Shown here: in pieces, positions 1-32,051 of the stretch
Layout of the letters: every line of letters begins with the position of its first letter
How positions within the stretch are numbered: position 1 is the first letter of the stretch
Virus record (IMG/VR): IMGVR_UViG_3300034375_005370
Location: 1-42,233 of that record
DNA length: 42,233 nt
Strand: one strand, 5' to 3'
From: a virus
Translations under genes and position numbers: made by a program
The notes under the pieces: generated by a model
The model's input: the letters and a program-made list of their open reading frames with translations, nothing else
Database searches by the model: none
What the model was told of the DNA's origin: nothing

Positions 1-2119
1 CAAGGACGCTGTTCTCAAAGTCATACCATGAGATGAGGTTGGCGGTTGAGCCTGTATAGTCTGCTAGGGTTCCATTATACCTAACTTCATTAAGTAATGA
101 ATCTAAATTTGCTTTTGATAAATCACTATTAAAAACAGCTTCCCAATGAAGAGAACCGTCTAATGTCCATGTTGATGAAGGATCGTCACCAATAGTAAAG
201 TTACTTTTGCTAACCATTCCACCATAAACTCCACTAGAAAAAGCACTTGTTGTTTCTTCTGTAAAGGATGTTTCACTAGAATTTGCTACAAAAAGTTTAA
301 TTCCACTATCAGCTTGTGTTCCATCGTAGGTAACGGCAATTACATAATCAGTATTAGTTGATAGAGAGTTTGTAACCTGTCTGCCAATATAATTGCCAGA
401 TGAATCGCTTATATTACAAAACATAGTAGCACCGCCAGACAAAAATCCAAAAGCATATTGCCTAGTATTCACCGCACTCATATCTCCATTAAAACAAGCT
501 AAAAATTGAGATAAATTATCAGCGTTAATTGATGCTATAATAGTAAAGCCATTTGCTTCGGAAGTGCTAAAATCAAAACCAGAATTTGTATTAACCAAAT
601 AATCAGTTGAGCCATTCAAATCTGCATACTGTGTCCTCGCATCCTTAACACCGCCTACCAGATCCGCTTCTGCTATATTATTAGGAGTCAGGTGGTTGAG
701 ATTAGTGTGGCTATCCTGACCAATGATCGTGTGATCTTGCTCGTTAAAGTCCCAGTGTGATACTAGGTTGGTCTTTTGGGCTGCACTTAGGTCTGCGTAG
801 TTGAGTGGTGCTCCGTTGTTGTAGAGGGATAACACATCCGAGTCACTTAATTTGGTATCATACCAATTAACTTGATCAATTTTTCCCAAGTAAAGACCAC
901 CACCGTTGCCCGTTGCGGATATACTGAAATAAGATCCTGCGGTCTGATTAGTGTAACTAGAGTTTAATCTAGTATTTGTAACATTGATGCCATTTACATA
1001 AATTTCTAAATCAGTGTCTACCGCACCACCACCATAAGTCGCATAAAAATGATACCAACCCGAACCGCTAGATATTGCCGAGCTTCTAACACCTATATAA
1101 CCAACACCATCATATATGAAAAAGGACAATTGTTTTGAACCATCAAAAACAAGTTGCATAGTAGTGCAAGCACTAGCACTACTGCCCATGCCAAACATAT
1201 TATCAAGTGTCGTTGTCCCATCCCAATAGAACCAACCACCAAATGAATATGTTATTTCACTAGACCCGCTTGTAGTAAAATCAGATCCGGTAACAGCAAA
1301 ATAATCATTCGCCCCATCCAACTGAACCGCATGAGTATCTTGGCTACTCTCACGACCAAAGTTTCTTGGGGAGTCAAAATCATACCACGCAGCTATGGAG
1401 CTATAGTATGTCTCGCTGCCCGTAAGATCACGATGTTTGATCCCTGTGCCGGAGTTGTAGAGGTCGGTTACTTCTCCAAGGATATCTTCGTCTAGTGCTT
1501 TGTTAAATATTATAACTTGGTCATATTTACAATTAGCATCTGAGGCACCCGAAAAATATTTTCCATCTATTCTAAATTGCTTTACTGAATAGGTTATGTC
1601 ATCGGGAGTTCCACTACTAGTGCTACTGCTTTGAGCAACTTCGCTCCCATCTACATACATTTTAAAACCAGTATTTAGCTTAGATCCATCATAAGTGTAA
1701 ACTAAATGATGAAAATCATCATCTGTAAAAGTTGTGTTAAATTTTGGGTATAGTAAAGCCCCATTGTCTGTTTTAATTATTGCCTCGTTTGACTCAACAC
1801 CAAAACCAACACCATACCCTAATGCGCCTGTATTTTCTAAATTATGTATCAATGGGTTAGCTGCTCCTTTGCTTTGCAATCCCCCAATCCAAATACTAAT
1901 AGACCAAGGTTCATCTGAGTTGAACATTAGACTATCACTTGAGCTTTCTAAATACTCATCAGTTGTTGACGCATCAACCGCCAACTTACCATTGATCCCT
2001 GTATCACTTCGCCAGTAACCCCACAAATTAGCTATATCTGTAATAGCCTGAGCAGCAGCTACAACGGCAGTTTTAGTCCAATGCCTAAAGTAAGGTAACA
2101 CTTTTGTCTTGAAAGACAT
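1..2119 (-). CDS. LamG-repeat virion protein, probable tail fibre/receptor-binding protein (3' end beyond window)
   Basis: The frame is open for 706 codons from ATG at 2119 to the left edge, with no stop. The start follows a near-perfect ribosome site (AAGGAGGT, then AGCA). The protein has serial concanavalin/LamG-like modules, for example the core HHLVYTYDGSKLNTGFKMYV, joined by linkers such as SSIAAWYDFDSPRNFG and LVSHWDFNEQ. LamG domains are carbohydrate- or protein-binding beta sandwiches, common in phage adhesins. Its linkers are almost identical to those of the gene at 40472-42233, while the modules between them differ. The gene is last in the late minus-strand series, 10 nt after the preceding gene. 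A role in host binding is inferred from the domains and position. Confidence 0.85.
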   Translation of the reverse strand, partial: MSFKTKVLPYFRHWTKTAVVAAAQAITDIANLWGYWRSDTGINGKLAVDASTTDEYLESSSDSLMFNSDEPWSISIWIGGLQSKGAANPLIHNLENTGALGYGVGFGVESNEAIIKTDNGALLYPKFNTTFTDDDFHHLVYTYDGSKLNTGFKMYVDGSEVAQSSSTSSGTPDDITYSVKQFRIDGKYFSGASDANCKYDQVIIFNKALDEDILGEVTDLYNSGTGIKHRDLTGSETYYSSIAAWYDFDSPRNFGRESSQDTHAVQLDGANDYFAVTGSDFTTSGSSEITYSFGGWFYWDGTTTLDNMFGMGSSASACTTMQLVFDGSKQLSFFIYDGVGYIGVRSSAISSGSGWYHFYATYGGGAVDTDLEIYVNGINVTNTRLNSSYTNQTAGSYFSISATGNGGGLYLGKIDQVNWYDTKLSDSDVLSLYNNGAPLNYADLSAAQKTNLVSHWDFNEQDHTIIGQDSHTNLNHLTPNNIAEADLVGGVKDARTQYADLNGSTDYLVNTNSGFDFSTSEANGFTIIASINADNLSQFLACFNGDMSAVNTRQYAFGFLSGGATMFCNISDSSGNYIGRQVTNSLSTNTDYVIAVTYDGTQADSGIKLFVANSSETSFTEETTSAFSSGVYGGMVSKSNFTIGDDPSSTWTLDGSLHWEAVFNSDLSKANLDSLLNEVRYNGTLADYTGSTANLISWYDFENSVL
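662..829. repeat. adhesin linker repeat L2, left copy
   Basis: Near-identical to 41125-41291 (only a few scattered differences by eye over about 168 bases). It codes for the LVSHWDFNEQ linker. The sequence on both sides is unrelated between the copies. Confidence 0.8.
1325..1763. repeat. adhesin repeat L1, left copy
   Basis: Codes for the end of the first LamG domain and the SSIAAWYDFDSPRNFG linker. It matches 41799-42233 closely; the last 93 bases match exactly up to the window edge. Confidence 0.8.
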
Positions 2120-4216: not shown

Positions 4217-5197
4217 TTAACTAGCAGCTTTAAATGCACCTAATCCCAAAGGATTCTTTACGCAAAGAGAGAGCACCGCGTCACAAAATCCACGCTCACC
4301 CCCACCCTGGTTCTCAAGGCGTTGTGAAGATTCTGCTTTAAGAATCGGAACCTCAATTAAATCGTTAGTTAGTAAATAACCACGATGACGAACTGTTGCA
4401 TCAATGCCACTTCCGCTAGTGCGTCCGTTGAATAGTGAAGGAACAATATAAACTACACCGTAATCACCTTCATATTGCATAACGTTAAGAGTGATTTTCT
4501 TATCGTTTGCATCTTCAGTCACGCGATAAGTAGTATCAGATGCGCGAGCGAAGTCTGTGATTGTGCGTTTAAGAGTTGGTCCTGCAACGAGATATAGATT
4601 ATCTCCTGCTGATCCTACTTGTTCATAACGGCTTTGAAGAACACCCTGTAGAGTATCTTCTGTGAATGAACCCATTGCTGTCGAGTTAACACTTGCAGAA
4701 GGAGTTCTGTATGCTGCGGGAACGTCAGATGGTCCTGAAGCATCAATCCAATCGCCTAAACCGCGAAGTTTGTATGGAGTTACTGCACCAGTTTCTTGCT
4801 GACGATCTTGGTCGGAAGCGATTGCTGATTCAATATCTCTTTTTAATTCACGAACACATTTTGCTTCAGAACGTGCGATTTCACTTGGAACGCCCGCAGT
4901 AGCAACGAGTTGCTGAATATCTGAAACTTGCCAGGTTCTACGAAACTTCTGAACGTAGTTACCAAGTTTTGCTCTATTCGCTGCCTTATTGTCGAATGAA
5001 TTTACGTCTGCCCCTTCTGATACTCCTGCAAATGCGGGTGTATCTAAATCATCGGCTTGCCACTCTACAAAAGTTGCTGTAGCTTTTGATTTCTTTGCCA
5101 TTGACAGAATTGGAGTTTCTTCTGGCTCCAAAACTGTAAGGTCATCTGTGATTTGCTCACGATTACCTGCTGCGTTATATGATGTTGCTAATGCCAC
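4217..5197 (-). CDS. major capsid protein (SU10/DUF5309-like, HK97 fold)
   Basis: This 326-residue protein has the layout of the SU10-like capsid family: an N-terminal stretch with PEETPILSMAKKSKATATFVEW, an acidic ADDLDTPAFAGVSEGAD segment, then VQKFRRTWQVSDIQQLVATAG and a long DNLYLVAGPTLKRTI region. Members form the icosahedral shell with an HK97-type fold. The frame begins with GTG at 5197, preceded by AGGAAAGG at suitable spacing; no ATG fits better. It follows the acidic scaffold gene by 27 nt, the usual scaffold-then-capsid order. It ends in LGLGAFKAAS. Confidence 0.88.
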   Translation of the reverse strand: MALATSYNAAGNREQITDDLTVLEPEETPILSMAKKSKATATFVEWQADDLDTPAFAGVSEGADVNSFDNKAANRAKLGNYVQKFRRTWQVSDIQQLVATAGVPSEIARSEAKCVRELKRDIESAIASDQDRQQETGAVTPYKLRGLGDWIDASGPSDVPAAYRTPSASVNSTAMGSFTEDTLQGVLQSRYEQVGSAGDNLYLVAGPTLKRTITDFARASDTTYRVTEDANDKKITLNVMQYEGDYGVVYIVPSLFNGRTSGSGIDATVRHRGYLLTNDLIEVPILKAESSQRLENQGGGERGFCDAVLSLCVKNPLGLGAFKAAS

Positions 5198-8888: not shown

Positions 8889-11570
8889 TTAATATCCACC
8901 CGCGCATTCCGTTCCCACGCTGTAATTGCTGCCTATATAGATAGGATCGGATACGCACAAATATCTCACGCAGTCAACAGGATCTTTGTAAGCTTCCTCT
9001 CGAGACACTCCCATATACTCCAACATTGCTGTAATTGTGTTTTCGCAACGATCAGAGACATATAATCTAGGTCTATTTTCGTCAGAGAGAGGTTTGTTAC
9101 TATCCCATGCTAGATAATCATTAATTTTCCCTATGCCCTGATCCTCGTCATCGGCAGGTGCGGGTTTAAAGTAGAAGCCTAAATCACCCATCTCTTGAAT
9201 GATATTAGTCTCTCCTGAAGCAGCCTGTTGCGTGTATTTGCCCATTCTAGGGTCAATGATGCGCTCAAATATCTCTGCTTTTCCTTCAATGTCTATGATG
9301 GTCTGTTTATATTCCTCATATCCATAACCTAGAGGTCTTTGACCGCCTCCCGCTTTTCCGATAGGTTTACCTGCTGCATTTGTCCAAGGCAATGCCCATT
9401 CGCCCATCGTGATGTCAGGAAACTCAGCATATATATAAATGTCCTCCCGATAGTCCACAGCAGCCCATAGCATAAACCAAGGCTTAGAACCCGCAGGATC
9501 GCATATATGGTATCTAGTAACTTTATGGTCTGGATCTTTAACAAAAGGTAAATCATCGTGGGGAATTACATTAACGTGCCTATTAAAGCGAGGTAGCCTG
9601 TTGTGGAAGGCTTTAGAAGGGACTCCATGAAGACGAGCAAGCTTAATTTCTAGCGGTTGGCCTGAGAACTGCGCTTCTAGTGCGTCAGACTCCACAAATG
9701 GGTTGTCTCTAGTCCACCAATAGTAGACATTCATGTTTGCGAACTTCTTTGATAGCTGCTTAACGGGCAGTTTCATGTTCACATAGTCAGAGTGCCTTTT
9801 TTCTACCGTTTTTGCACCATTAAGTATCTCAGAAACTAAATCTGTCCACCCCTGTAGCGTTGTAAACGTGAGTAGAAGCTTTCCTCTATAGTCAGTGAGC
9901 CTCGACAATAGCGTAATGACAAGGTCTTTAGGTGCTTCTTCGTCACACCAGATAAAATGAGCTTTAAAACCCTCTGCAACTTGTTTATCATGCTGATATT
10001 GCTTATAGTTGTTGAAATAGATATAAGACCCCTTTTTTCTGCCAGGATGTGGAGGTAAAATCAACTTATTGTCAGTAAACCCATTCTTTTGCGAATATTG
10101 AATGCTATGATTAGGACCCTTTTTTTTGGTCATATTCTTATACTTCTCAGGCAGCATAGCCCAAACCATAGCTTGTTGGTCTTGGATAGATCGTTCCTCA
10201 GATACATGAAAGCAGCGAATTTCGGCTTCAGGGATGTTTTCTAATAACCATACTACTAGTGCTGCTGAGAAAAACGATTTTCCTGAGTTGTGGTGAATGG
10301 CTCCCCCATGGTAATAATTGTGATATACTGGAACATTAAAATCCCATACGCTATCATTTCGGAGGTATTCGACCTTTTCTATCTTGACAGAATAGGTTTT
10401 TATGCTATTATCTCTAAAATATGGTAAGAAAACATAGAATAAACTATCCTGTGGAACAGATTCGCCAATGGATTGAGCAAGACGGCAAAACGCAAGCCTG
10501 GATTGCTCAAGAACTATCGAATACTGTTGACGATCGAATAACACCAAAGCTGATTTACAAAGTCTGTAAAAAGCATAACATAAATTGCCAAAGAACTGGC
10601 CCTCGTAGCGGTTCTGATCACCCAAAGTGGAAAGGAGGTCGCTGTCTAAATAAGAGTGGATATTGGGAAATATTTCTGCCAGATCACCCCATGGTTGTCC
10701 AGAGGAACAAAGCATTGAAGGAGAAACATAGGGGAGAGAAGAAATATATTCACCCAAATAACTACTACTTAGAGCATAGATACGTTGCAGAACAAAAATT
10801 AGGTCGTGTTCTTTCTCCCGAAGAAGTTGTTCATCATCGTGATGGAGATACTCAGAATAACCATCCAGACAATCTTGAAGTTTTTCCAAGCAATGGAGCA
10901 CACCTTGCTGCGACCCTAAAAGGGAAGTGTCCGAACTGGTCAGAGAACGGAAAGAAGAAGCTGAGGGCATTTCAGGATCTCCGAAGAATGAAAGCAAAAG
11001 CTCGTCACCACTTTTTAGATGTCCTACGCTACGGTATCCAACAGGAGTTAAAACTCGATGAGCCTTGGAGCAAGCAAAAGACATCTCGTTGGGCAGATGA
11101 ACACGATATATCTCTTGAGACTCCTTTTTATAAGGTTTCTCTGCTTTTGCTTGAACAAGCTTAACTCCATCCCAAGCTAATACATGAAAGTCAGTATCTA
11201 TCTCAGATATTGGCTTTTTTGCGTCAGCCACAGGATCATAGATCAATGACTCTGGCGCTAAACAACGATTTCCACCGAACACTGTAGCAGAAGTCCATTC
11301 TGACCAATCATTTAGAACTTTTTGCCAACAATGCAGGGTAAATGTCCACTCCAACGGATCTTGAGTTGCCCAATCTTCGTGGTTTTCGATGATGTCAGCC
11401 AATTTCTCTGCTCCCGCAGGATTTCTGGCTATGAGTGCTTCAGCCTGTTCTGTAGATAGGTTGCTTTTTAATATGCCCCTCTCTATCCTAAAGGTATCAG
11501 AATCCCAAGGAAAGCCAAATTCAGGCTGAACATCACTAGTATGTATCCTCTTGCTACTCGTTTTTGACAT
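8889..11570 (-). CDS. terL: terminase large subunit (TerL) precursor containing an intein
   Basis: The 893-residue frame gives a 567-residue TerL after removal of a 326-residue intein (residues 103-428). TerL is the ATP-driven DNA packaging motor and headful/end nuclease. The Walker A loop is split: FGGNR at residues 98-102 continues as SGKS after the intein. Walker B is seen in AHFIWCDEEAP. Nuclease acidic residues appear in YHICDPAG, RIIDPRMGK and DPVDCVRYL. Start ATG 11570 has AAGGA six bases upstream. The C-terminus ends GTECAGGY. It follows two small genes, the first a DNA-binding protein, and precedes the portal. Activity requires splicing, because the insertion breaks the ATP-binding loop. 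Confidence 0.93.
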   Translation of the reverse strand: MSKTSSKRIHTSDVQPEFGFPWDSDTFRIERGILKSNLSTEQAEALIARNPAGAEKLADIIENHEDWATQDPLEWTFTLHCWQKVLNDWSEWTSATVFGGNRCLAPESLIYDPVADAKKPISEIDTDFHVLAWDGVKLVQAKAEKPYKKESQEIYRVHLPNEMSFACSKAHRVLTPVGYRSVGHLKSGDELLLSFFGDPEMPSASSFRSLTSSDTSLLGSQQGVLHCLEKLQDCLDGYSEYLHHDDEQLLREKEHDLIFVLQRIYALSSSYLGEYISSLPYVSPSMLCSSGQPWGDLAEIFPNIHSYLDSDLLSTLGDQNRYEGQFFGNLCYAFYRLCKSALVLFDRQQYSIVLEQSRLAFCRLAQSIGESVPQDSLFYVFLPYFRDNSIKTYSVKIEKVEYLRNDSVWDFNVPVYHNYYHGGAIHHNSGKSFFSAALVVWLLENIPEAEIRCFHVSEERSIQDQQAMVWAMLPEKYKNMTKKKGPNHSIQYSQKNGFTDNKLILPPHPGRKKGSYIYFNNYKQYQHDKQVAEGFKAHFIWCDEEAPKDLVITLLSRLTDYRGKLLLTFTTLQGWTDLVSEILNGAKTVEKRHSDYVNMKLPVKQLSKKFANMNVYYWWTRDNPFVESDALEAQFSGQPLEIKLARLHGVPSKAFHNRLPRFNRHVNVIPHDDLPFVKDPDHKVTRYHICDPAGSKPWFMLWAAVDYREDIYIYAEFPDITMGEWALPWTNAAGKPIGKAGGGQRPLGYGYEEYKQTIIDIEGKAEIFERIIDPRMGKYTQQAASGETNIIQEMGDLGFYFKPAPADDEDQGIGKINDYLAWDSNKPLSDENRPRLYVSDRCENTITAMLEYMGVSREEAYKDPVDCVRYLCVSDPIYIGSNYSVGTECAGGY
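10384..10411 (+). promoter_or_regulatory. promoter of the antisense HNH gene, inside the intein coding region
   Basis: TTGACA (10384-10389), 16 bases, TATTAT (10406-10411) on the plus strand. The predicted start (about 10418) is only two or three bases before the HNH ATG at 10421, so the mRNA would be nearly leaderless. The promoter lies within codons for the intein's C-terminal splicing region on the other strand. Confidence 0.7.
10421..11164 (+). CDS. HNH homing endonuclease encoded antisense within the TerL intein
   Basis: This 247-residue protein has an N-terminal helix-turn-helix-like region (QTDGK-type segment, KTQAWIAQELSNT, residues 23-35) and HPKWKGG at 67-73. The HNH motif comprises LEHRYVAEQKLGR (117-129), EEVVHHRDGD (134-143), NN 146-147, NLEVF 151-155 and H161. 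Such enzymes cut DNA with a metal held by the His/Asn residues, and often mobilise introns or inteins. The gene lies wholly inside the intein, opposite to terL. Its C-terminal residues about 195-247 overlap intein residues 34-88, including block B. It has its own promoter. Homing of this intein is inferred. Confidence 0.9.
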   Translation: MVRKHRINYPVEQIRQWIEQDGKTQAWIAQELSNTVDDRITPKLIYKVCKKHNINCQRTGPRSGSDHPKWKGGRCLNKSGYWEIFLPDHPMVVQRNKALKEKHRGEKKYIHPNNYYLEHRYVAEQKLGRVLSPEEVVHHRDGDTQNNHPDNLEVFPSNGAHLAATLKGKCPNWSENGKKKLRAFQDLRRMKAKARHHFLDVLRYGIQQELKLDEPWSKQKTSRWADEHDISLETPFYKVSLLLLEQA

Positions 11571-11748
11571 ACTGATTCCTTATATAGTCCAAATCGTTGC
11601 TATATTCCTTCAAACAGTCAATTTTAGCGTCAACCTCTGCCCTCAGATTGTCAATTAAATCAATTATTTGTCTCTCTGTTGATCTGTAATCTTGATGTCT
11701 GCGGTTTTCATGCGATTCACAACCTCCCCTGATACTGGCTTTTCCCAT
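11554..11748 (-). CDS. hypothetical protein (64 aa) overlapping terL start
   Basis: No family recognised. The C-terminal two thirds is a charged helix (RQIIDLIDNLRAEVDAKIDC), possibly a coiled coil. The start ATG 11748 has one of the best ribosome sites in the window (AAGGGGAG, six bases, ATG), although this makes the gene overlap the preceding one by 85 nt. Its end overlaps the terL start by 17 nt, which suggests translational coupling. A role near terminase, for example as small subunit or regulator, is only a positional guess. Confidence 0.6.
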   Translation of the reverse strand: MGKASIRGGCESHENRRHQDYRSTERQIIDLIDNLRAEVDAKIDCLKEYSNDLDYIRNQYVKNE

Positions 11749-12194
11749 ATTAATCTCCCCTTATTTGTATATTTACCTACCAAGTGATATGCAGACCCAA
11801 CAGCAACAGGGAATCCGAGCAAATAATCACCATTTCTAAATCTATTATCATAACGCTTTATTCTTACGTTTACACGCTTGTTATCGTAGTCTCTACAGAC
11901 TAGACAAGTGTCTTTTGGTCTGCCTTCTATCTTAAACATACTAGATTCCCTCACAAGCGTCTCAGGATGGGTCAATTTCCATAGCCCAAATTCGATTCTC
12001 ACAAGGTTTTTCTGCTCATTGAGGTCTTGGTTCAAAATTAACCTAGACAAGCCTAATTCATTAGCCAGTTGCTCCTGAGTTATGCCATGCTTTTCCATAA
12101 ACTCCTTGTATGGATTAAATGGAACTACCTTTTTAGCTACTTTTTTAGCTGCTGATTTGGTTACTTTTTTGGCAGCCTTCTTTTTCTCACTCAT
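11664..12194 (-). CDS. HTH DNA-binding protein with histone-like basic tail; candidate small terminase or late regulator
   Basis: This 176-residue protein starts with a Lys/Ala tail of histone H1 type (KKKAAKKVTKSAAKKVAKK). An XRE-like helix-turn-helix follows (GITQEQLANELGLSRLILNQ, residues about 37-56), and then a C-terminal domain containing CLVCRDYDNKRVNVRIKR. It is the first gene after the control region and lies two genes upstream of terL, where a small terminase often sits. The helix-turn-helix would equally suit a transcription regulator. A promoter lies just upstream (12203-12231), and the ATG lacks a clear ribosome site. Confidence 0.6.
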   Translation of the reverse strand: MSEKKKAAKKVTKSAAKKVAKKVVPFNPYKEFMEKHGITQEQLANELGLSRLILNQDLNEQKNLVRIEFGLWKLTHPETLVRESSMFKIEGRPKDTCLVCRDYDNKRVNVRIKRYDNRFRNGDYLLGFPVAVGSAYHLVGKYTNKGRLIWEKPVSGEVVNRMKTADIKITDQQRDK

Positions 12195-12202
12195 ATTAAA
12201 GA

Positions 12203-12231
12203 ATTAAATACCATTAATTCTCTTTTGTCAA
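12203..12231 (-). promoter_or_regulatory. late promoter before the HTH/terL operon
   Basis: TTGACA at 12231-12226 and TTTAAT at 12208-12203 on the minus strand, 17 bases apart. The -10 box is only 8 nt before the ATG at 12194, so the transcript would be leaderless or nearly so. Confidence 0.6.
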
Positions 12232-12264
12232 ACAAAAAATGCAAATGTGACAAATATATTGCAC

Positions 12265-12315
12265 AAAAAAGCACCTCAGCAGGAAAAAGAAAGAAGGAAA
12301 AACCCGCCAAGGTGC
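12265..12315 (-). terminator. intrinsic terminator on the minus strand
   Basis: Read leftwards, GCACCT pairs with AGGTGC (arms 12315-12310 and 12276-12271) and is followed at once by TTTTTT. The loop is an unusually long pyrimidine tract. It would stop transcripts from the promoter at 12344-12371 about 70 nt after their start, and any read-through from the early genes, before the late genes begin. Confidence 0.7.
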
Positions 12316-12343
12316 ATATGCCTATTATAACTGTCAATATAAT

Positions 12344-12371
12344 ACTATATACAACTATCTATATTTGTCAA
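12344..12371 (-). promoter_or_regulatory. strong minus-strand promoter feeding a short leader RNA
   Basis: TTGACA (12371-12366), 16 bases, TATAGT (12349-12344). It has the same boxes and spacing as the plus-strand promoter at 12407-12434 and lies back to back with it. The first terminator comes about 70 nt downstream (12265-12315), ahead of the late genes. Confidence 0.7.
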
Positions 12372-12406
12372 GTCTATACATTAAAGAATTAAAGATAGTT
12401 ATTTAT

Positions 12407-12434
12407 TTGACAAACCACAAAATATGTATATAGT
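12407..12434 (+). promoter_or_regulatory. strong plus-strand promoter of the structured RNA
   Basis: TTGACA (12407-12412), 16 bases, TATAGT (12429-12434). The predicted transcription start is near 12441, directly before the outer stem of the RNA at 12461. Confidence 0.75.
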
Positions 12435-12440
12435 ATATAA

Positions 12441-12660
12441 GATAAAGTAGGAAAAGCCATGTAGAGCTAGATAGTATAATCTACATCGTGTAGTCTGAGG
12501 GTGACGAGAATACGCCCTATAGCACCAAGGAGGTGTCAGATGAAGTCAAGCGACAGGACTCACCCGCCTGTCTTGATTAATATATTGGGTCTTAGCTGAC
12601 GTTACTAAGCTAGGTTGGGATGGGGAACATCTTGAGCCGAGAAGACCGACTAGCTCTATC
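12441..12660 (+). ncRNA. probable structured noncoding RNA of unrecognised class
   Basis: No convincing reading frame is present. A perfect 9-base outer stem joins TAGAGCTAG (12462-12470) with CTAGCTCTA (12650-12658). Inside it are consecutive hairpins: CTACA-TCG-TGTAG, AGGG...CCCT, CACC-AAGGA-GGTG, GACAGG...CCTGTC, CTTAG...CTAAG and GATG-GGGAA-CATC. The whole follows a strong promoter with a start near 12441. This layout is typical of a folded RNA. I could not match it to tRNA, tmRNA, RNase P, 6S or a group I intron. The 3' end is uncertain; a large hairpin at 12718-12759 may be part of it. Confidence 0.6.
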
Positions 12661-12717
12661 CAAAATATGTCCTGACTATAACTGCTCAGATTATTTATAA
12701 AGTTTTATCAACAACTT

Positions 12718-12759
12718 AGGATACAATCCCTACCCTAAATGGGGGGTTTATTGTATCCT
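12718..12759. repeat. perfect 10-base inverted repeat with G/C inner stem
   Basis: AGGATACAAT (12718-12727) pairs exactly with ATTGTATCCT (12750-12759). Inside, CCC/CCC triplets face a run of six G. No T-run follows on either strand, so it is not a standard terminator. It could be the 3' part of the upstream RNA, a protein site or an origin structure. Confidence 0.7.
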
Positions 12760-13002
12760 TCACGAGCCTACTACCCTACTAGCTATTTATAAGCAGTATT
12801 ATCAAATATAACCACTTTTTACGAGTATAACCTTGCGTAATAACCACTTATAAATAAGACTAAATACCCAGTTTTTAAGAGCTTATTTGTCAGATATAAA
12901 AAAAATTAGGCAGTTGATTAATCGCAATATTTATTATCAGAAAGTTCGTATCCCCCTCCCCCTATCTGGAAATAACACTTGATAACAAATTTTATCCATG
13001 CC

Positions 13003-13043
13003 AATAACAGCAGGTAACAGCATGAATAACAGTAGGTAACAGC
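13003..13043. repeat. two 19-base direct repeats
   Basis: AATAACAGCAGGTAACAGC (13003-13021) and AATAACAGTAGGTAACAGC (13025-13043) differ at one base and have a period of 22, about two helical turns. This spacing suits binding of a protein to one face of the DNA. Confidence 0.75.
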
Positions 13044-13085
13044 TAAAGGTAAGAAATATGGGAAAAGAAAAAGAGTGTTGTTTAA

Positions 13086-13155
13086 TCAAATCTTTCTTAT
13101 TGTCACATTTACACTATGCGTCAAATCTTACTTATTGTCATCTTTACACTATGCA
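13086..13155. repeat. two tandem 35-base repeats (iteron-like)
   Basis: Units 13086-13120 and 13121-13155 abut exactly. Both begin TCAAATCTT, share CTTATTGTCA, and end TTTACACTATGC plus one base; they differ at only a few positions. A weaker third copy follows to about 13187. Tandem iterons of this kind bind replication initiators or regulators. Confidence 0.75.
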
Positions 13156-13280
13156 TTCAAGTTTACTACTCTCATATTTACATAAGTAATACCGGTAATC
13201 TCTCTAATGAGCTATAGAATGCAGTATAGAATTGATTTACATATAGTTTTAATGCTAGTATATCAATGGACATAAGAAAA

Positions 13281-13302
13281 CCCGTATCGGTTAAAATACG
13301 GG
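13281..13302 (-). terminator. hairpin terminator after early minus-strand genes
   Basis: CCCGTAT and ATACGGG form a 7-base stem with an 8-base loop. On the minus strand TTTTCTT follows. On the plus strand a weaker T-rich tail follows, so it may act both ways. It lies 30 nt downstream of the small gene at 13332-13460. Confidence 0.6.
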
Positions 13303-13331
13303 CTTATTTGATTGTTTTATATGTTTGCTAT

Positions 13332-13460
13332 TTATAGGCTGAATGCAAGCGCAAGACTAAAGCCCATTAATAAGCAAGCTCCAAGCATTGCAAGGTTGCA
13401 AGCTATGTTGATAAATAGTTCTTTGTTGTATTGTAGGTTGTATTTGATAAATTGTCTCAT
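13332..13460 (-). CDS. small membrane protein (42 aa)
   Basis: This short frame starts at ATG 13460 with AAGGA eight or nine bases upstream and lies just after the gene at 13473. It encodes a polar N-terminus (MRQFIKYNLQYNKELF), then one hydrophobic helix (residues about 17-41) rich in Leu, Ala and Gly, ending SLALAFSL. Function is unknown. The ribosome site and position between a gene and a terminator support a real gene. Confidence 0.6.
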   Translation of the reverse strand: MRQFIKYNLQYNKELFINIACNLAMLGACLLMGFSLALAFSL

Positions 13461-13472
13461 TTCAATAGTTCC

Positions 13473-15231: not shown

Positions 15232-15510
15232 AATTAAAACAGTATGCATGCATGTATGTTTTGCAAGTAAATTTTAATATTATTTTTATTTTTCTGCTAT
15301 TTTTTATCCTAAATTTACATAAATAACTATATTTCAATAATTTAAAAATACGCTGTTTTATTGCGTTTTTATCACATATATTCATTGTACTATATATACG
15401 CGGAAAATGTTCTTTGATTGCTGCTTTTCACAAATCAGTAAATTTTATAGATGTAGTAAATTTATTTTTATGCATCTTTATCTGATTTTTAAAATGCCAA
15501 TAAACAGCAA

Positions 15511-15597
15511 ACAAATTGTCTGGAAATGTTTATTAAAGAATTAAATATCTTTATTGTAGACAACTAACAAATTGCCTGAAAATGTTTATTAAAGAAT
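15511..15597. repeat. two 31-base direct repeats
   Basis: Copies at 15511-15541 and 15567-15597 share ACAAATTG, CTG and AAATGTTTATTAAAGAAT with two differences. A shorter third match (GACAAATGTTTATCA) lies near 15620. The core TTAAAGAATTAAA also occurs near 12198 and 12381. Confidence 0.7.
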
Positions 15598-15731
15598 AAA
15601 AGGTAGTTGATTCTCGAATCGACAAATGTTTATCATTTCAGGAGAGGAACTTTTTTAACTTTTTTGCCCCTTTATAGTAAAATACGGGGTAAATTTTGAA
15701 AATTTGGCAGAGGGGGGTCATTTTTTTACAA

Positions 15732-16177: not shown

Positions 16178-16375
16178 TTACTTCATCGTCCAGTGATAAT
16201 GAGGAATTGGTTGTGGTGGACGAACTCTTTTATTCCATTTGTCTATTTCTTCACCCCATCCTGATATACCAAGACCACATTCGATGCACTTTACCTTCCA
16301 ATCTTCTCCGCAATCTCTTCTTATTGCTTTGCCTCCGCAACAAGGGCATGGTTTAAGTTCTACTTCTTTACTCAT
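16178..16375 (-). CDS. Lar-like zinc-ribbon protein (65 aa)
   Basis: Two Cys pairs, CPCCGGKA (residues 9-16) and CIECG (about 34-38), with VELKPCPCCGGKA at the start and WNKR near residue 48, match the small Lar/restriction-alleviation type zinc ribbon common in phages. Family members can modulate host restriction, but most are uncharacterised. Its start overlaps the dUTPase stop by four bases (ATGA), so the two genes are translationally coupled. Confidence 0.7.
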   Translation of the reverse strand: MSKEVELKPCPCCGGKAIRRDCGEDWKVKCIECGLGISGWGEEIDKWNKRVRPPQPIPHYHWTMK

Positions 16376-16794
16376 CGTCCTGTGCTACCAAATCCACCTT
16401 GTTCACGCTCACTATTGCTAACATTTTTTACCTCATTCAACACTGCGCTGTAGTGTTTTTCAAAGATAATCTGAGCTATTCTATCACCCTTGTTTACAAT
16501 AAACGTATCATCTCCATGATTCATTAGGATAACGCCTATATCGCCTCTGTAATCGCTGTCTATCACACCTGCTAATACGTCAATACCATACTTGTAGGCT
16601 AAGCCACTTCTAGGTGCAATTCTGCCATAGAATCCCTCTGGAATTTCCATTGATATATTAGTTTTGATTAGTCCATGAACACAAGATGGTATGGCTGTTG
16701 ATTCTGCTGCATATAGATCATATCCTGCTGCATAAATTGAGCCTTTTGTGGGCTGTTTTGCTAATTCTGATAGTTTTTTAAAGTTTATTGTCAT
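16372..16794 (-). CDS. dut: dUTP diphosphatase (trimeric dUTPase)
   Basis: At 140 residues it has all five motifs of the trimeric dUTPase family: AGYDLYAA (1), PRSGLAYKYGI (2), GVIDSDYRGDIGVIL (3), KGDRIAQIIF (4) and the flexible C-terminal loop EQGGFGSTGR (5). The enzyme converts dUTP to dUMP and pyrophosphate, keeping uracil out of phage DNA and supplying dUMP for thymidylate. The gene lies in the same transcript as the ribonucleotide reductase. The ribosome site is AGAGAG before ATG 16794. Confidence 0.95.
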   Translation of the reverse strand: MTINFKKLSELAKQPTKGSIYAAGYDLYAAESTAIPSCVHGLIKTNISMEIPEGFYGRIAPRSGLAYKYGIDVLAGVIDSDYRGDIGVILMNHGDDTFIVNKGDRIAQIIFEKHYSAVLNEVKNVSNSEREQGGFGSTGR

Positions 16795-16911: not shown

Positions 16912-17087
16912 TACACTGTTTTGTCAAGAAATTCTTCAATTTCTGCTGCAATTAAGGATGTTTCATCTACATACATTAGGCAGGAGGCCAGTATATATCT
17001 GGCTTCCTCGAATAATTCATCTTGATCTTCCAGTATTTGCTCTAATACTGCTACCTTATCTTCTATATTTTTAATTTCATTTTTCAT
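16911..17087 (-). CDS. small acidic helical protein (58 aa) after ribonucleotide reductase
   Basis: Start ATG 17087 overlaps the ribonucleotide reductase stop by four bases (ATGA); a non-ATG start further upstream would intrude into that gene. The protein is acidic and helical (MKNEIKNIEDKVAVLEQILE, then DQDELFEEARYI), probably a coiled coil. Function is unknown. Confidence 0.65.
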   Translation of the reverse strand: MKNEIKNIEDKVAVLEQILEDQDELFEEARYILASCLMYVDETSLIAAEIEEFLDKTV

Positions 17088-19063
17088 TTTACTGGACAAG
17101 CTCCACCTGCACATTCTGTTCCTGACACTTCGTGATGCCCATTAGCATCATCTAGGTCAATTTCTTTAAGTTTATTAACGTATTCATCGTATGTAGATTT
17201 GTCAACAACTTCTTGAGGTAAATATTTATACCCTAGATCAGCAGCAGTTTTTGTAGGATCTGCGCGAAACAAAAACGATACACCTATGTAATTATCCCAA
17301 TTGCGCTCTAGCCAGTCTATTATGGCAGGAACTTCAGATGGGTCATAGCTGATAGTCGAAGATACATTTTGATGACACCAGTTAGTTTGTAGCATTAGGT
17401 ATCTATCTAATTGTTCTACAGCAGTTTCTAAGTTAACTTCTTTGCCATTTACCACGTCAAATTCTACACCATCATTGCAAACTGGAAACGTAACTAACAT
17501 TGAGTCTGCATCTGTTGGATGAGGAAAAACATTGTATTCTGCATCCTGAAGGATTTTTACAACTGGGTCATGCTTAGAAAAGTTGACATTGTTAAAGATG
17601 TATTTGCCTAGTGGTTTGTGCATCCCTTCGGTGGTATCATAGATTTTACTCATTGTTCCAGAAGGTTTTACAGTAGTAACATTCTTCGGTCTAGGTAGAT
17701 TCATCTCATCTGCCATACCATAGGCTGCTGAAGTAGCGATTCTTTCCAGTGATCTATAGTCGTATGCGTCTAAATCAGGTCTTTTAGCGATTCCTGTGAT
17801 ACCAACTCCGCAAAGGTGTAAGAACTCGTTGTTTTGATGCCAAGTATCCTGTAATATCCCATCTCTGAGGTCTACACAAGTTTGTCTGTAGTTTGCCCTT
17901 GAGATTAGTCTTGTTGCTTCCATGAGTCCAGAGTGATCGCCCTTGAATTTGGCTAGATCAATCTCAGATAGGTTACAAAAGCTTTTGTTGCCCAGTAGGA
18001 TTTCAACACAAGGATTACAGCCTTTAAACCAAGGTGCTTTTTTGAGTGCAGCTTCACCGTTGATAAACCCTGGTTCTGATCCACCTGCTTTGACCATAAG
18101 ATCAAAGATGTTTTCCATTTCTTCGCGCGTTGGCTTGCTATGGAAGAGTAGGGAATTGTTGCTTTGACATCTGTGCTCGTTGTCATACAACCACCAATCT
18201 TTCTTTGCTACCGCAAAATCCATCCATTCGGGTTCACTATAATCAAATAAGGCTATTTCAGCACTTCTACGGCTGCTTAAAACCGTTCCGAGATGATTTA
18301 CTACATCTAGTATATCCATCTTCTTTAAAAGGTTTCCTGAACGTTGTGAGAGGATCTGAGCTATTCTAGTATAAGCCTTTGAAATTGCTTCTGTTCCGCT
18401 AGAAATCCACCCATAACCTTTAAGTCTATCACCCGCAGGTCTAATCTCACTAAAGTCAAGCACAATTCTTTCAGCAGGATATTTCATTGCGAGAAGTTTG
18501 CCTACAGACTTAGCCCATGCTTCAGCACTATCGCCTATTTTTAATGTCCATGTTTCGCTCTCAGCATCCCAAAATTCCTCGTTGTGTTCCTGACCGCCCT
18601 TAGTTAATCTGCTCGATTCTACTACAACTATGTCTGATACAGGCTTGGTAAAACCAGTGAGAGTGCCTGTTACTGGCTTAAAACCTACTCCGCAACCCTG
18701 TAACAGCAGCCATAAGATGTCTACGCAATCATTGACAGTTTCAGCATAGGTGAATGAGCAGTTAAACATGGAACTTTCCCTGCGTCTACTAATTTCTGTG
18801 CCACCTAACCATAAAGTGCGACCTGCTACTGCAACCTTTCTGCTGAGAAGTAGTTGTTTAAGCTCAAATAGTTCAATTGACTCATCATCTGTCAATTCTC
18901 TATCTATCGCTCTTTCCCATAGCCATTTCTGGTGTTCAATTACACGATCAATGGTTTCGTGCCATGTTTCAAAGACAGTTCCTTCATCATTGAGAGGTCT
19001 ATTGTAAGTTCTTCTAGTTATTACTTTTGCTCTAGTGCTTGGATTGTTAACTATTGATTCCAT
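17084..19063 (-). CDS. nrdJ: class II (adenosylcobalamin-dependent) ribonucleotide reductase
   Basis: This 659-residue enzyme reduces ribonucleotides to deoxyribonucleotides for phage DNA synthesis. The catalytic set Asn350, Cys352, Glu354 (NPCVE) and Cys363 keeps the spacing of the monomeric Lactobacillus leichmannii-type enzyme. Cys102 (FNCSF) is the partner redox Cys, and the tail pair Cys651/Cys656 (CAGGACPVK) would re-reduce the site. The N-terminal RTYNRPLNDEGTVFETW is typical. No nrdA/nrdB pair or glycyl-radical activator is present, which fits the oxygen-independent B12 class. The gene starts inside the end of the 71-residue gene and is coupled to the next. Confidence 0.93.
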   Translation of the reverse strand: MESIVNNPSTRAKVITRRTYNRPLNDEGTVFETWHETIDRVIEHQKWLWERAIDRELTDDESIELFELKQLLLSRKVAVAGRTLWLGGTEISRRRESSMFNCSFTYAETVNDCVDILWLLLQGCGVGFKPVTGTLTGFTKPVSDIVVVESSRLTKGGQEHNEEFWDAESETWTLKIGDSAEAWAKSVGKLLAMKYPAERIVLDFSEIRPAGDRLKGYGWISSGTEAISKAYTRIAQILSQRSGNLLKKMDILDVVNHLGTVLSSRRSAEIALFDYSEPEWMDFAVAKKDWWLYDNEHRCQSNNSLLFHSKPTREEMENIFDLMVKAGGSEPGFINGEAALKKAPWFKGCNPCVEILLGNKSFCNLSEIDLAKFKGDHSGLMEATRLISRANYRQTCVDLRDGILQDTWHQNNEFLHLCGVGITGIAKRPDLDAYDYRSLERIATSAAYGMADEMNLPRPKNVTTVKPSGTMSKIYDTTEGMHKPLGKYIFNNVNFSKHDPVVKILQDAEYNVFPHPTDADSMLVTFPVCNDGVEFDVVNGKEVNLETAVEQLDRYLMLQTNWCHQNVSSTISYDPSEVPAIIDWLERNWDNYIGVSFLFRADPTKTAADLGYKYLPQEVVDKSTYDEYVNKLKEIDLDDANGHHEVSGTECAGGACPVK

Positions 19064-25277: not shown

Positions 25278-25478
25278 ATGAACGAAAACAAGAAAGAATT
25301 AAAATGGGATCTCGTTTACTGGGCAGGTGAGCGAGATATATGGGTGAGGACTAAATCTGGAATGCATAGAGCATATTGGAGAAGTGGCGGTCTTGTTGAT
25401 AAAAATAGCGAATGGAGAGATTGCATTGTGGATGCTCTTGCAGATGCTAAATTACACTTAGAAGGGTTTGTGAAATGA
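25278..25478 (+). CDS. hypothetical protein (66 aa)
   Basis: ATG 25278 is chosen over an in-frame TTG at 25260; neither has a ribosome site. It reads MNENKKELKWDLVYWAGERD then MHRAYWRSGGLVDKNSEWRD. A consensus -35 (TTGACA, 25243-25248) lies 35 nt upstream of the ATG, so a nearly leaderless transcript is conceivable, but the -10 box is poor. Function unknown; its stop overlaps the next start (ATGA). Confidence 0.6.
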   Translation: MNENKKELKWDLVYWAGERDIWVRTKSGMHRAYWRSGGLVDKNSEWRDCIVDALADAKLHLEGFVK

Positions 25479-26056
25479 AGAAGTCATTTATATTATATCA
25501 CGATGCCTGTGAAAACATTTTTGATTTATCAAATGAAGATGCAGGAATAGTTTTTAAAGATATTATTTTTCACAGCTTTGAAAAGAATAATCATAACCCA
25601 AAGAAAGCGAAAAAACCCAATGGGTTAAATGGGTTATTGAGTATAGTCTCGACATTCTATAAAGACCAAATAGACAGGGACTTAGAGAATTATAATAAGA
25701 TTGTAGAAGTCAATAAAAACAATGGAAAAAAGGGAGGCAGACCAAAGAAGAAAAACCCAATAAAAGCGAAAAAAGCCGATAAGGATAAGGATAAGGATAA
25801 GGATAAGGATAAAGAAAAAGAAATATATAATATTTATCCACGAAAGATAGGTGGAGCTAAAGCAATTGAATCAATCACAAAAGCTCTAACCAAAATCTCA
25901 TACGAAGAACTCAGAGAAAAAGTAAAAACGTATGCAGAACAATCAAAGGAAACTGAACCTCAGTTTATTCCTCATCCTTCAACTTGGTTCAATCAAGAAA
26001 GATGGTTAGATGTTCAGCAGATAAAAAACAATAAAGTATTCTTGAATTTGATATGA
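25475..26056 (+). CDS. replication initiation protein (DUF6291-like)
   Basis: The 193-residue protein begins KKSFILYHDACENIFDLSNE and has GVFKDIIFHSF-type and YKDQIDRDLENY segments, as in DUF6291 proteins of phage replication modules. A low-complexity Lys/Asp linker follows (residues about 100-118). The C-terminal part contains YPRKIGGAKAIESITKALTK and IPHPSTWFNQERW, the end typical of helicase-loading or initiator proteins. It is coupled to dnaB by an ATGA overlap, so it probably opens the origin or loads the helicase. Confidence 0.7.
   Translation: MKKSFILYHDACENIFDLSNEDAGIVFKDIIFHSFEKNNHNPKKAKKPNGLNGLLSIVSTFYKDQIDRDLENYNKIVEVNKNNGKKGGRPKKKNPIKAKKADKDKDKDKDKDKEKEIYNIYPRKIGGAKAIESITKALTKISYEELREKVKTYAEQSKETEPQFIPHPSTWFNQERWLDVQQIKNNKVFLNLI
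25778..25813 (+). repeat. hexanucleotide microsatellite in the initiator gene
   Basis: GATAAG five times followed by GATAAA, in frame, encoding Asp-Lys repeats in the linker. A change in copy number would keep the frame but alter linker length. Confidence 0.85.
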
Positions 26057-27330
26057 GCAAAAAAATTGAACAGGGAATCTTAGCTTGCATTCTCAAAGAT
26101 GGTGAATCAATCGTTGATGTAGTCAGCGAAGGAATTAAGCCTAAGTCTTTTGAAGATCCACAATGCTCTAAGCTTTTCGAGGATATGCTAAAAGTCTACT
26201 CAAATGGTGAAAATCCAGATTATGTAGAGATGTGTATGCAAGAGAACGCTGATATAAGCCTTCTAGGATACCTAGACGAGCTTGTAGACACATCAGCTAT
26301 GCTTGGGTCTTATTTGAAAAAGAAAAAGGCTTCTATGGCTAAATATGAGCTTTTAAGGAAATTAAAGGAAATATGGGAATTAGTTAAAAATGATACCTGT
26401 GATTCTGAAAAAGCAATCGGATTAATGTGTGAGTTAAATAAAAACTCAAAAAACGAGAAAAACATCACTGTCAAAAAAGAAGTAGAAAAGCTAAAAAAGA
26501 TAGCCATAACTCCTGAAGATGAAAGAAGCGAATTAACGCGCACATTTACCTTTGGATTAAAAGGTGCAGATTTAAAACTAAGCAGAATACGAAAATCTGA
26601 GCTTGTTGTAGTTGGTGCTAGACCCTCCACTGGAAAAACATCGTTAGCGTGTCAAATCATGGATTCTAATGCCAAAGAGCAGAACAACATCCTATTCTTT
26701 AGCTTCGAAACAGATGCAGACGAATTGTCAGAAATAATCATGTTGCAAAGAACCAAGCAGAACCTAGATTGTATCACCCAGGATGGAACAGATTGGTGGG
26801 ATAGACAAACAGATGATTCGTTAGACAATATGCAGATTATATCAAAACCCTGCACAGTTGAAGAAATCGTTGGCAAGGTTAAAGCAAATCATGGAGCAGG
26901 AAAGTGTGATATGGTAATCATTGATTATCTTCAGCTTATAGTTCCATCGGACAATAAGCAGAGTAGAGAACAGCAGGTTGCTCACATATCCAGACAACTC
27001 AGGCTATTGACAATCGAATTGTGTGTTCCAGTTATAGCACTAGCACAACTAAATCGTGGCACAGAAAAAGAAGATAGACCGCCAAGGATGTCAGACCTCA
27101 GAGAATCAGGAGCTATTGAACAAGATGCCTCTAGGATAATTATGATACATAGACCCAAGGAGAAGTTTGACGGGTCAACTCAAGACCCTGAGCAGGGTTA
27201 TACGTCATTTGTATTTGACACAGCGTTACTACAGGTAAAGTGCAAAAAAGGACCAAAGGGAGTAGGTATTCCAACTAGATTTATGGCTCCTGAACAAAAG
27301 TTTTATGAAATATCTTCGATTTCTGTTTGA
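26053..27330 (+). CDS. dnaB: replicative DNA helicase DnaB
   Basis: The 425-residue enzyme has the N-terminal helical domain (residues 1-90), then the RecA-like core. Walker A is VVGARPSTGKTS (residues 186-197), Walker B MVIIDYLQLI (287-296), and SREQQVAHISRQLRLL and ALAQLNR with RPPRMSDLRESGAIEQDA correspond to the conserved DnaB motifs. It unwinds DNA at the fork and, in phages without a polymerase gene, recruits host replication proteins. It is coupled to the upstream initiator gene (ATGA) and followed by small genes. Confidence 0.95.
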   Translation: MSKKIEQGILACILKDGESIVDVVSEGIKPKSFEDPQCSKLFEDMLKVYSNGENPDYVEMCMQENADISLLGYLDELVDTSAMLGSYLKKKKASMAKYELLRKLKEIWELVKNDTCDSEKAIGLMCELNKNSKNEKNITVKKEVEKLKKIAITPEDERSELTRTFTFGLKGADLKLSRIRKSELVVVGARPSTGKTSLACQIMDSNAKEQNNILFFSFETDADELSEIIMLQRTKQNLDCITQDGTDWWDRQTDDSLDNMQIISKPCTVEEIVGKVKANHGAGKCDMVIIDYLQLIVPSDNKQSREQQVAHISRQLRLLTIELCVPVIALAQLNRGTEKEDRPPRMSDLRESGAIEQDASRIIMIHRPKEKFDGSTQDPEQGYTSFVFDTALLQVKCKKGPKGVGIPTRFMAPEQKFYEISSISV

Positions 27331-28190: not shown

Positions 28191-28221
28191 ACCCTAGTTC
28201 ATTGAGAGCTAGGGTTTTTTT
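28191..28221 (+). terminator. strong terminator of the rightward operon
   Basis: ACCCTAG (28191-28197) pairs with CTAGGGT (28209-28215), followed by a run of seven T. The converging minus-strand gene stops inside the 3' arm (TAG at 28211-28209). Confidence 0.85.
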
Positions 28222-31200: not shown

Positions 31201-32051
31201 CCTGTTTTTGCTAATTTACCTGGACCTGAAACCACAACTAAATTACCTGGGTCTGTTAGTAATGAAGATGCATTTTTTAAGTTTTCATAAACTTCTTCAG
31301 GCTTAAATATTAAACCGTATTGTTGTTGAGCTTTTTCTTTCCACCTTCTGCTTCTTAGTCTTTCTGATTCTGCCTGAATTTCTTCCTCTAGCTTTGGTCC
31401 ACTCCAATAGTGTGTTCCATATTTGGCAAGCTCTTTTATTTGAGTAACTGCCCCTGAAGCTATTCTAGCATAGTCCTCTATGTTTTGTGCTCCACTTTCA
31501 ATTATACTCTTTTCTAACTTTGATAAGCCCTGACCACCTTCATACTGTGCAACATCCTCTTGAGTTAACCCTAATACACTAGGATCTCTCTTTAAATCCC
31601 TCATCCCCTTATGTTTGAAGTGCTCTTTCAGCGCAGTAGGTAATTCTCTTGCTGCACCCTTTGCCATTTCCTTGATGCCAATAGCTGCTTGCCCAAACAT
31701 TCTAGTTGCCCTGCTAATATCCTCTAATATGTTTTCGGTAGGAGTTTGCAGATTTCTTTTTCTCTGCCTTATCTCATACATTTCTGGCGTTTCTGGTGCA
31801 TTTCTAGCTTCAGGTGAGTTAAAAATATCATCCAATTCCTCGTCTGTAGGATTTTCACCCTTTGGAAACTCAAACTCCAATATCTGTCCTGTTTCTTCGT
31901 TAATAACTTCAAGCCACTCATATTGAGTATCGTCAACAACTTCTTGAGGTTGATTGTCTAACTCTACCTCTGGTTCAGGCATTGGTGCAACCTGTTCACC
32001 TGTTGGTAGTGTTTTTCTATCTAAGCTAGGTGGTAATGCTCCGTATAACAT
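28209..32051 (-). CDS. large polyvalent ejection protein: glycine zipper, HEIGH metallopeptidase-like and C-terminal methyltransferase regions
   Basis: 1280 residues. Residues 1-130 are acidic. A glycine-zipper hydrophobic region (GAWQGATVGGTIGATIGGGW, about 334-353, continuing to about 366) could cross a membrane. NNAHEIGHAAFDSML (594-608) is a zincin-type HExxH-like metal site, with HEYSAEHY near 668 as a possible third ligand. Residues 1124-1270 look like an S-adenosylmethionine methyltransferase: ILDFSAGLGHG (1125-1135), GYEP (1148-1151) and NNAVLNVVP (1180-1188). It follows the other ejection genes, where T7 has gp16. It probably enters the host with the DNA and may cut host proteins and modify DNA; both activities are inferred. 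Confidence 0.78.
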   Translation of the reverse strand: MLYGALPPSLDRKTLPTGEQVAPMPEPEVELDNQPQEVVDDTQYEWLEVINEETGQILEFEFPKGENPTDEELDDIFNSPEARNAPETPEMYEIRQRKRNLQTPTENILEDISRATRMFGQAAIGIKEMAKGAARELPTALKEHFKHKGMRDLKRDPSVLGLTQEDVAQYEGGQGLSKLEKSIIESGAQNIEDYARIASGAVTQIKELAKYGTHYWSGPKLEEEIQAESERLRSRRWKEKAQQQYGLIFKPEEVYENLKNASSLLTDPGNLVVVSGPGKLAKTGMSIAARKSAYLPRMAAAIPKYSGKSSSWVLESKPIKYLAGKTTEVGKRQGAWQGATVGGTIGATIGGGWGAIVGGQIGAALGHLGGKAVPEFMYSAAKRAARTTEKLGENANQIFKMMTDPGTSKRFFLRVASNPEINPKIRGLAKKAYDMGGTKFGDYAFDTIADGIEIGALNAALEYAATGDVGEAGGAAATGLLGPVTAAFSGSKGGLGSGAGSKRQKNTIAQFIEEGLEKDQVKAFKKLPPEAQIQFASAKLAGNNFKLKILSNQEMVDMFGDKVEAAYDRLDNRTVYINGETATTKKVDELVGNNAHEIGHAAFDSMLNSPEGDNIIAALRLGTTGNKEVVLRDGTKIKGLSNEAVDYISGYNDALGGDVIRTYDDFLHEYSAEHYRLMFEKNPDIFESLDDTGLEFFSSAIRRTLEENGFIKQNGDEIKGAAQRLKRNPEIKKLINNWHQVKKIQDHRAKEEMNNELGYRKITPNEVSKIKTANPNMSIVSHKNAQGENMVGIVPDKKVKKDSIKNLKDIAETGGVVPFDLKNKEGNYGIILDRRFIQNLIMSQKGKIEDLSDQLEKYLTTLDNWENSTQMNKLANITMQYIGEDGKLTGFAANRIVAPFGIKLVQKKGGAIGVSLQFTDMHYLRENARLARRDMPEKYLNKDGSLMTVDEIIDDLNTYARDMYKKDSAMPERYKVLYGIKGPDKYVIPIKDTDLKKWAERQMKERTQSKTGYKQREGNARPTGEGNPYNTFKSTYIDGLVGIESIDVPSPSIAYNITKAKFMPKKKISNEVIPKEEGGDMPPATWDYLFANGYNPEDAKGTQITTTKGTYEKIGEKFINKNERILDFSAGLGHGTKALKDKGYNIDGYEPFSQPEKRVIDPDFENVNDIPSNSYDKIINNAVLNVVPEQTRVDILKGIYRVLDNKGEAFVNVMGWNSIKKTLNNPKTKLVGPREVITGKGTFQKGYKQSDFIEFVQKILPEAEVKKGVAGDANVIIKKP

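Follow-up and report, generated by a model that had tools for sequence, protein, structure and literature searches.

The IMG/VR record IMGVR_UViG_3300034375_005370 is a linear virus contig of 42,233 bases from an uncultured phage, and its whole length, referred to here as the window, was analyzed. Matches to PHROG families (Table 1) identify a tailed phage, and the best named relative of its major head protein is found in Phage C75C1 (45% identity). The intein-like insert of the terminase large subunit comprises residues 119-428 and resembles Pfam PF14890 with an E-value of 1.6e-6, which is under the curated cutoff. A 1280-aa protein with a methyltransferase-like C-terminus is encoded amid the virion genes (28209-32051, minus strand).

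The largest gap of the record without open reading frames (ORFs) of 60 aa extends from 12195 to 13472 and marks the junction of the replication and virion modules; positions 1-2119 were not counted as a gap, as the ORF located there runs off the record end. The RNA candidate lies in this gap and adjoins the DNA-packaging genes of the terminase operon. The original prediction had described the region as devoid of genes, which holds for ORFs of at least 60 aa but not for short frames, one of which is preceded by a perfect Shine-Dalgarno sequence. No evident plus-strand gene follows the RNA before a terminator-like hairpin, which is bidirectional by sequence and would both terminate the leftward operon lying to its right and keep transcription of the RNA from running on. 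Within 13003-13155, the same gap contains a 19-nt repeat in two copies and a 35-nt repeat in two tandem copies (direct repeats at 13003-13043 and 13086-13155), which might represent a replication origin. At 15501-15601, two 45-nt direct repeats each carry TTTATTAAAGAATWAAA at their end, and their 3' part occurs again at 12192 and 12377.

Table 1. Genes, promoters and predicted RNA elements of the phage contig.
Feature	Position	Strand	Basis or remark
Major head protein	4217-5197		PHROG match
Terminase large subunit gene with intein-like insert	8889-11570	-	PHROG match
Promoter of the divergently oriented 176-aa HTH gene (11664-12194), a mirror image of the RNA promoter	12344-12371	-	Same -35/-10 as RNA promoter, common TGTATATAGTAT
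Promoter TTGACA-16-TATAGT (TTGACAAA variant) before the RNA	12407-12434	+	13/14 matches
Predicted transcript start and 5' leader	12441-12460	+	Predicted, 7 nt after -10
P1 outer stem	12461-12470/12650-12659	+	Pair probabilities 0.83-1.0
P2 hairpin, 5 bp	12481-12485/12489-12493	+	Probability 0.54-0.82; rearranged in L002 variant
P3 three-way element, closing helix	12494-12497/12537-12540	+	Weak, 0.48-0.57
P3a	12498-12503/12513-12518	+	Minimum-energy fold, inside P3
P3b	12522-12526/12532-12536	+	Minimum-energy fold, inside P3
Perfect Shine-Dalgarno sequence AAGGAGGTG	12527-12535	+	Single copy of the 9-mer in the record
19-codon open frame MKSSDRTHPPVLINILGLS	12540-12599	+	Behind the Shine-Dalgarno sequence; predicted
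P4 hairpin, 6+6 bp plus one inner pair	12544-12549/12573-12578, 12552-12557/12567-12572	+	Minimum-energy fold
P5 three-way element, closing helix	12588-12592/12643-12647	+	Minimum-energy fold
P5a (span 12593-12612)	12593-12597/12608-12612	+	Minimum-energy fold, inside P5
P5b (span 12613-12638)	12613-12622/12628-12638	+	Minimum-energy fold, inside P5
Strong stem-loop, candidate transcript 3' end	12718-12759	both	z -3.5 (+), -3.7 (-); 0/200 shuffles equally stable
Terminator-like hairpin	13278-13305	both	Bidirectional by sequence
dUTPase	16372-16794		PHROG match
Ribonucleotide reductase	17084-19063		PHROG match
Holliday junction resolvase, exonuclease, Erf-like annealing protein	as far as 24300		PHROG match
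Replication initiation protein and DnaB helicase	25475-27330	+	PHROG match
Virion proteins	toward right end of record		PHROG match

The RNA had been proposed to be driven by a consensus promoter, and the elements TTGACA and TATAGT, separated by a spacer of 16 nt, are present as described. Record-wide, four sites show at least 13 of 14 matches to TTGACAAA/TATAAT, with 0.1 expected from mononucleotide shuffles (n = 20), a count that is partly circular as this pattern was refined after the sites had been seen. The unrefined pattern, TTGACA-14..19-TATAGT, is present three times in the record versus 0.08 expected. The RNA promoter is clearly beyond chance, and the genome-wide site count strengthens its assignment. 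Three of the four sites are found on the minus strand ahead of leftward virion-module genes, and the fourth is the RNA promoter. Their predicted transcription starts are situated 17 nt ahead of a neighbor of the major head gene that starts at 6391, 33 nt ahead of a virion protein gene starting at 37625, and 143 nt ahead of the gene starting at 12194, upstream of the terminase. Another site, with 12 of 14 matches, precedes the gene starting at 8813 by 34 nt. Sites of this score mean little on their own, because the nine sites with at least 12 matches in the record compare with 3.2 expected by chance and some of them are located within genes or on the opposite strand. The best reading is that a phage promoter class would serve both the virion module and the RNA, its "late" timing being suggested by the gene content. 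This common promoter type fits an expression of the RNA alongside the virion module, and nothing more; the roles originally suggested, in the late switch, at the origin or in countering host defense, are hypothetical. Judged by its sequence, the candidate has a promoter of its own, as is expected of a free-standing phage small RNA.

The minus-strand promoter of the 176-aa helix-turn-helix (HTH) gene mirrors the RNA promoter, and an imperfect 37-nt inverted repeat (12342-12378/12400-12436) spans the two. These back-to-back, near-identical promoters with TGTATATAGTAT occupy 12342-12436 between the HTH gene and the RNA and might constitute a shared operator. The 176-aa protein exhibits weak HTH matches to regulators (best E-value 0.002), and blastp against the genes at the same place in C75C1 and in a related viral contig, L062, yielded nothing significant. 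It could be either a regulator or the small terminase subunit.

Transcription is expected to start at about 12441, approximately 20 nt ahead of the outer stem, which agrees with the original placement of the start just before this stem. The minimum-energy fold of 12457-12665 (-64.5 kcal/mol, 63 pairs) contains the proposed outer stem of nine perfect pairs, extended to 10 bp by an outermost G-U pair, and the six local hairpins enclosed by it can be equated with P2, P3a, P3b, P4, P5a and P5b. Seven of the 63 pairs are G-U pairs, which form in plus-strand RNA only. Consequently, the minus strand gives a less stable fold (-52.7 versus -64.5 kcal/mol), and a DNA cruciform was rejected, as the G-U pairs argue against it. 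Two long-range pairings, noted by eye only, are possible between the P5a loop and 12473-12477 and between the P4 loop and 12499-12504.

Compared with chance, the advantage of this fold is only modest. Its stability corresponds to a z-score of -1.72, with 10 of 200 shuffled sequences equally stable, and to -2.16 in a larger test (37 of 1500); overall, z-scores ranged from -1.7 to -2.35. A closing helix of at least 10 pairs over at least 150 nt was obtained in 19 of 1500 shuffles, and sequences that were as stable and also closed by so long a helix in three of 1500. In a scan of the genome, in which 371 of 414 windows were scored, the region ranked first of 371 by energy but 24th by z-score, indicating that part of its stability is a matter of composition. 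Between 12459 and 12661 the G+C content amounts to 47%, compared to 26% on either side, which is the 98.6th percentile among 200-nt windows. This local G+C island is unusual, and its borders fall at the outer stem, by which they had been defined for that measurement.

A feature that was absent from the original prediction is the perfect Shine-Dalgarno sequence AAGGAGGTG in P3b, which is followed by an ATG and a frame of 19 codons. Its AAGGA portion is predicted to be unpaired in the P3b loop while the last four bases are paired in P3b. An AAGGAGG motif with an ATG 4-8 nt further on exists twice in the record, here and at an end-open gene of 706 aa starting at 2119. Among 20000 shuffles of the 325 nt, AAGGAGG-4..8-ATG arose in 76 and AAGGAGGTG-3..7-ATG in six. 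The likelihood of obtaining the combination of Shine-Dalgarno sequence and ATG at random is about as low as that of the fold, and a peptide or a ribosome contact must therefore be taken seriously. The elements of a small protein gene, a ribosome-binding site and an open frame, are both present. A search with the 19-aa peptide, to which one residue was added to meet a length limit, gave no family match, and the pattern AAGGAGGTGNCAGATGAAG produced five non-self matches in viral contigs that, by eye, resemble ordinary gene starts.

The description as an unrecognized RNA was supported by searches for known families. None of the 4227 Rfam 15 covariance models, which presumably include tmRNA, RNase P, 6S RNA, group I and II introns, pRNA, GOLLD, ROOL and riboswitches, matched the window at its gathering threshold, and ARAGORN identified no tRNA or tmRNA genes in it. 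At E-values of up to 10, the region 12380-12800 showed a single hit, attributed to chance, to snR57 on the opposite strand (17.2 bits, gathering threshold 50). Distant blastn against the phage collection gave no match at 1e-5 and, at E-values of up to 10, three fragments, attributed to chance, that spanned 11-16% of the query; the plasmid collection contained no match. Within 90 loci, full-length blastn matches were restricted to L001, L002, L004 and L011, all the same phage. Matches of 14-15 bases in seven further loci (L027, L044, L046, L052, L038, L045, L058) were rejected, as reading of the letters placed them in apparent coding sequence. Relatives among viral contigs were collected by terminase (nine loci), major head protein (193, of which 80 were kept), the 176-aa gene (two, both the same phage) and the portal candidate (three, all the same phage). 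Four RNA patterns retrieved 7, 13, 37 and 7 stretches from viral contigs and no relative beyond the same phage, and three stretches from a pattern scan of genomes were judged to be chance.

A covariance model of the RNA, R1, was built from two near-identical sequences and has little power, finding close relatives only. It was run against overlapping sets of 93, 44, 46, 8 and 2 sources. Beyond the same phage, the 93 sources contained one match at 6.8 bits and the 8 sources one match at 10 bits. In the 46 sources, R1 had 15 matches, none above 13.0 bits, which mostly covered the seed stretch itself; the best of them (L114, E-value 0.019) was off-seed and patchy, and these were discarded. Among 44 records of terminase and head protein relatives, only the two near-identical ones matched. 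In C75C1 (OQ984151) and L062, where the module border was taken as the comparable place, R1 found nothing; the comparable gap of L062 (1354-2146) is also non-coding. Three genomes yielded one match with an E-value of 0.095, and 398 genomes of one phylum, which may not be that of the host, one match with an E-value of 3e-4 (21.4 bits). The latter, the only match beyond the same phage with an E-value under 0.001, was rejected, since it is located on the coding strand within an apparent urease alpha gene, a name presumed from the look of its sequence. In the collections searched, relatives of the RNA were confined to contigs of what is practically the same phage, and a covariation test is impossible because only such near-identical contigs were found.

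Among the contigs searched with the model, only these near-identical ones, L002 and L004, carry the RNA. In L004, the RNA region is identical, as is the entire non-coding stretch covered, and 25 of 4787 positions differ elsewhere. L002 is otherwise 99.9% identical and, over 14,680 bases, shows 16 differences, of which three fall into hairpin P3b (12523-12536), flanking the Shine-Dalgarno sequence on both sides. The predicted fold of L002 retains P1, P3a, P4 and P5 and loses P2 and P3b, and the Shine-Dalgarno sequence, the ATG and the 19-codon frame are all preserved. This variant speaks against a strictly needed P3b and is neutral on the rest. The original view of a structured RNA is plausible, but it concerns a single sequence whose L002 variant changes both sides of P3b without clean compensation.

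Downstream of the folded domain, a strong stem-loop is a candidate for the transcript 3' end. It is not followed by a U-run and contains two weak terminator-like sites; the next such site is located at 13281-13302. Depending on which candidate 3' end applies, the transcript would measure either ~320 or ~870 nt.

These features make an orphan transcript of the phage plausible, which would probably be a structured small RNA of the virion stage and possibly also encode a peptide. In the proposed scheme, whose transcription, transcript ends, action in trans and ribosome contact are all predicted, the region would be a plus-strand unit of the phage that is transcribed independently. Its sigma-70-type promoter, of the type also serving the virion-module genes, would initiate the transcript, which would fold into a compact domain of ~200 nt with P1 closing P2, P3 (a and b), P4 and P5 (a and b), and would end near the strong stem-loop or, failing that, at the terminator-like hairpin. 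At the virion stage, this small RNA would then act in trans. Since no plus-strand gene is evident downstream of it, regulation in cis is unlikely and action in trans most likely; for the same reason, a leader of a downstream gene was rejected, no evident plus-strand gene being found ahead of the terminator-like site. Because the P3b loop would display the AAGGA of a perfect Shine-Dalgarno sequence, contact with the 30S subunit would be the likeliest first step. An antisense RNA directed at the phage was likewise discarded: the longest exact match comprises 12 nt, and duplexes were no better than those of shuffled RNA (best duplex at 40 phage gene starts -36.6 kcal/mol, shuffled mean -38.3 kcal/mol). 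A free-standing RNA of the virion stage that acts in trans, with contact likeliest at the P3b ribosome-binding site, is thus put forward as a tentative interpretation.

The same Shine-Dalgarno sequence would be read differently if the region were a small mRNA, in which the 19-aa peptide is the point and the hairpins gate the ribosome-binding site or stabilize the message, perhaps in a dual-function RNA. The rarity in shuffles of AAGGAGGTG with an ATG at the right spacing, shared in its AAGGAGG form with one other gene of the record, agrees with this possibility, as do the ordinary gene starts seen at the AAGGAGGTGNCAGATGAAG matches elsewhere and the L002 variant, which alters the hairpin around the Shine-Dalgarno sequence yet retains it together with the ATG and the frame. 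However, a message of only 19 codons, whose peptide is without a family match and whose Shine-Dalgarno sequence has its last four bases paired in P3b, would leave the elaborate P1 and P5 unexplained, and this explanation is considered rather unlikely. Alternatively, the gap might be a spacer without RNA function, that is, regulatory DNA between the early and virion modules with promoters, HTH operators and repeats, the fold of its G+C-rich part being fortuitous. The strong promoter of the phage's own class that points into the region, the sharp composition borders at the outer stem and the G-U pairs, which make sense in RNA only, speak against a spacer, which is nevertheless given an equally modest chance in view of the modest folding scores, the lack of visible conservation with only near-identical contigs found, the nearby direct repeats and the comparable gap of L062, also non-coding and without a model match.

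A packaging RNA that partners the terminase, as pRNA does in phi29, would be suggested by the position beside the terminase operon, the promoter type in common and the two three-way elements of the fold. The pRNA gene of phi29, a member of a different phage group, is presumably also located beside packaging genes. The Rfam search gave no family match, and hence none to the pRNA family, and of the 44 records of terminase and head protein relatives, only the two near-identical ones matched the model; a packaging role is thus regarded as extremely improbable. Highly improbable, too, is a new kind of phage RNA, which would be expressed along with the virion genes by a promoter in mirror-image arrangement next to the terminase operon, contain a ribosome-binding hairpin as its core and function in head assembly or packaging, or in drawing 30S subunits to or away from messages at a late stage of infection.

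If real, the tentatively favored trans-acting RNA would provide a group of tailed phages, known chiefly through metagenomes, with a structured RNA that is free-standing, and it would demonstrate that promoter class and composition can lead to such RNAs where covariation is unusable. At present it is an orphan candidate, and its value hinges on evidence at the RNA level or on relatives that have diverged.

Small RNAs of 200-300 nt have been recorded in phages (Table 1 in PMC12197685), among them misc_4 of phiR1-37, a phage-encoded trans-acting small RNA of 296 nt (PMC12197685). The candidate resembles the trans-acting RNAs described there in being phage-encoded, of similar length and, as predicted here, free-standing; however, no sequence relation to them was found, and it is known from its sequence alone. 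The dual sRNA and mRNA IsrK of prophage Gifsy-1, listed with 217 nt (Table 1 in PMC12197685), is similar in length and also contains a small frame, whereas both roles are putative for the present RNA, and the two were compared only via Rfam and the sequence collections. The packaging RNA of phi29 is described as a phage RNA with a three-way junction (PMC12670572), while the present RNA lacks an Rfam match and has a different layout, with P1 closing four elements. GOLLD and ROOL are non-coding phage RNAs with elaborate folds, which are often found near tRNA islands, and many GOLLD RNAs exceed 800 nt (as characterized in PMC12286853). In contrast, the present RNA is smaller and without an Rfam match, and its record contains no tRNA; as families, GOLLD, ROOL and phi29 pRNA were excluded by the Rfam search. 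Among these systems, the RNA is best described as an orphan candidate of a known kind, the phage small RNA.
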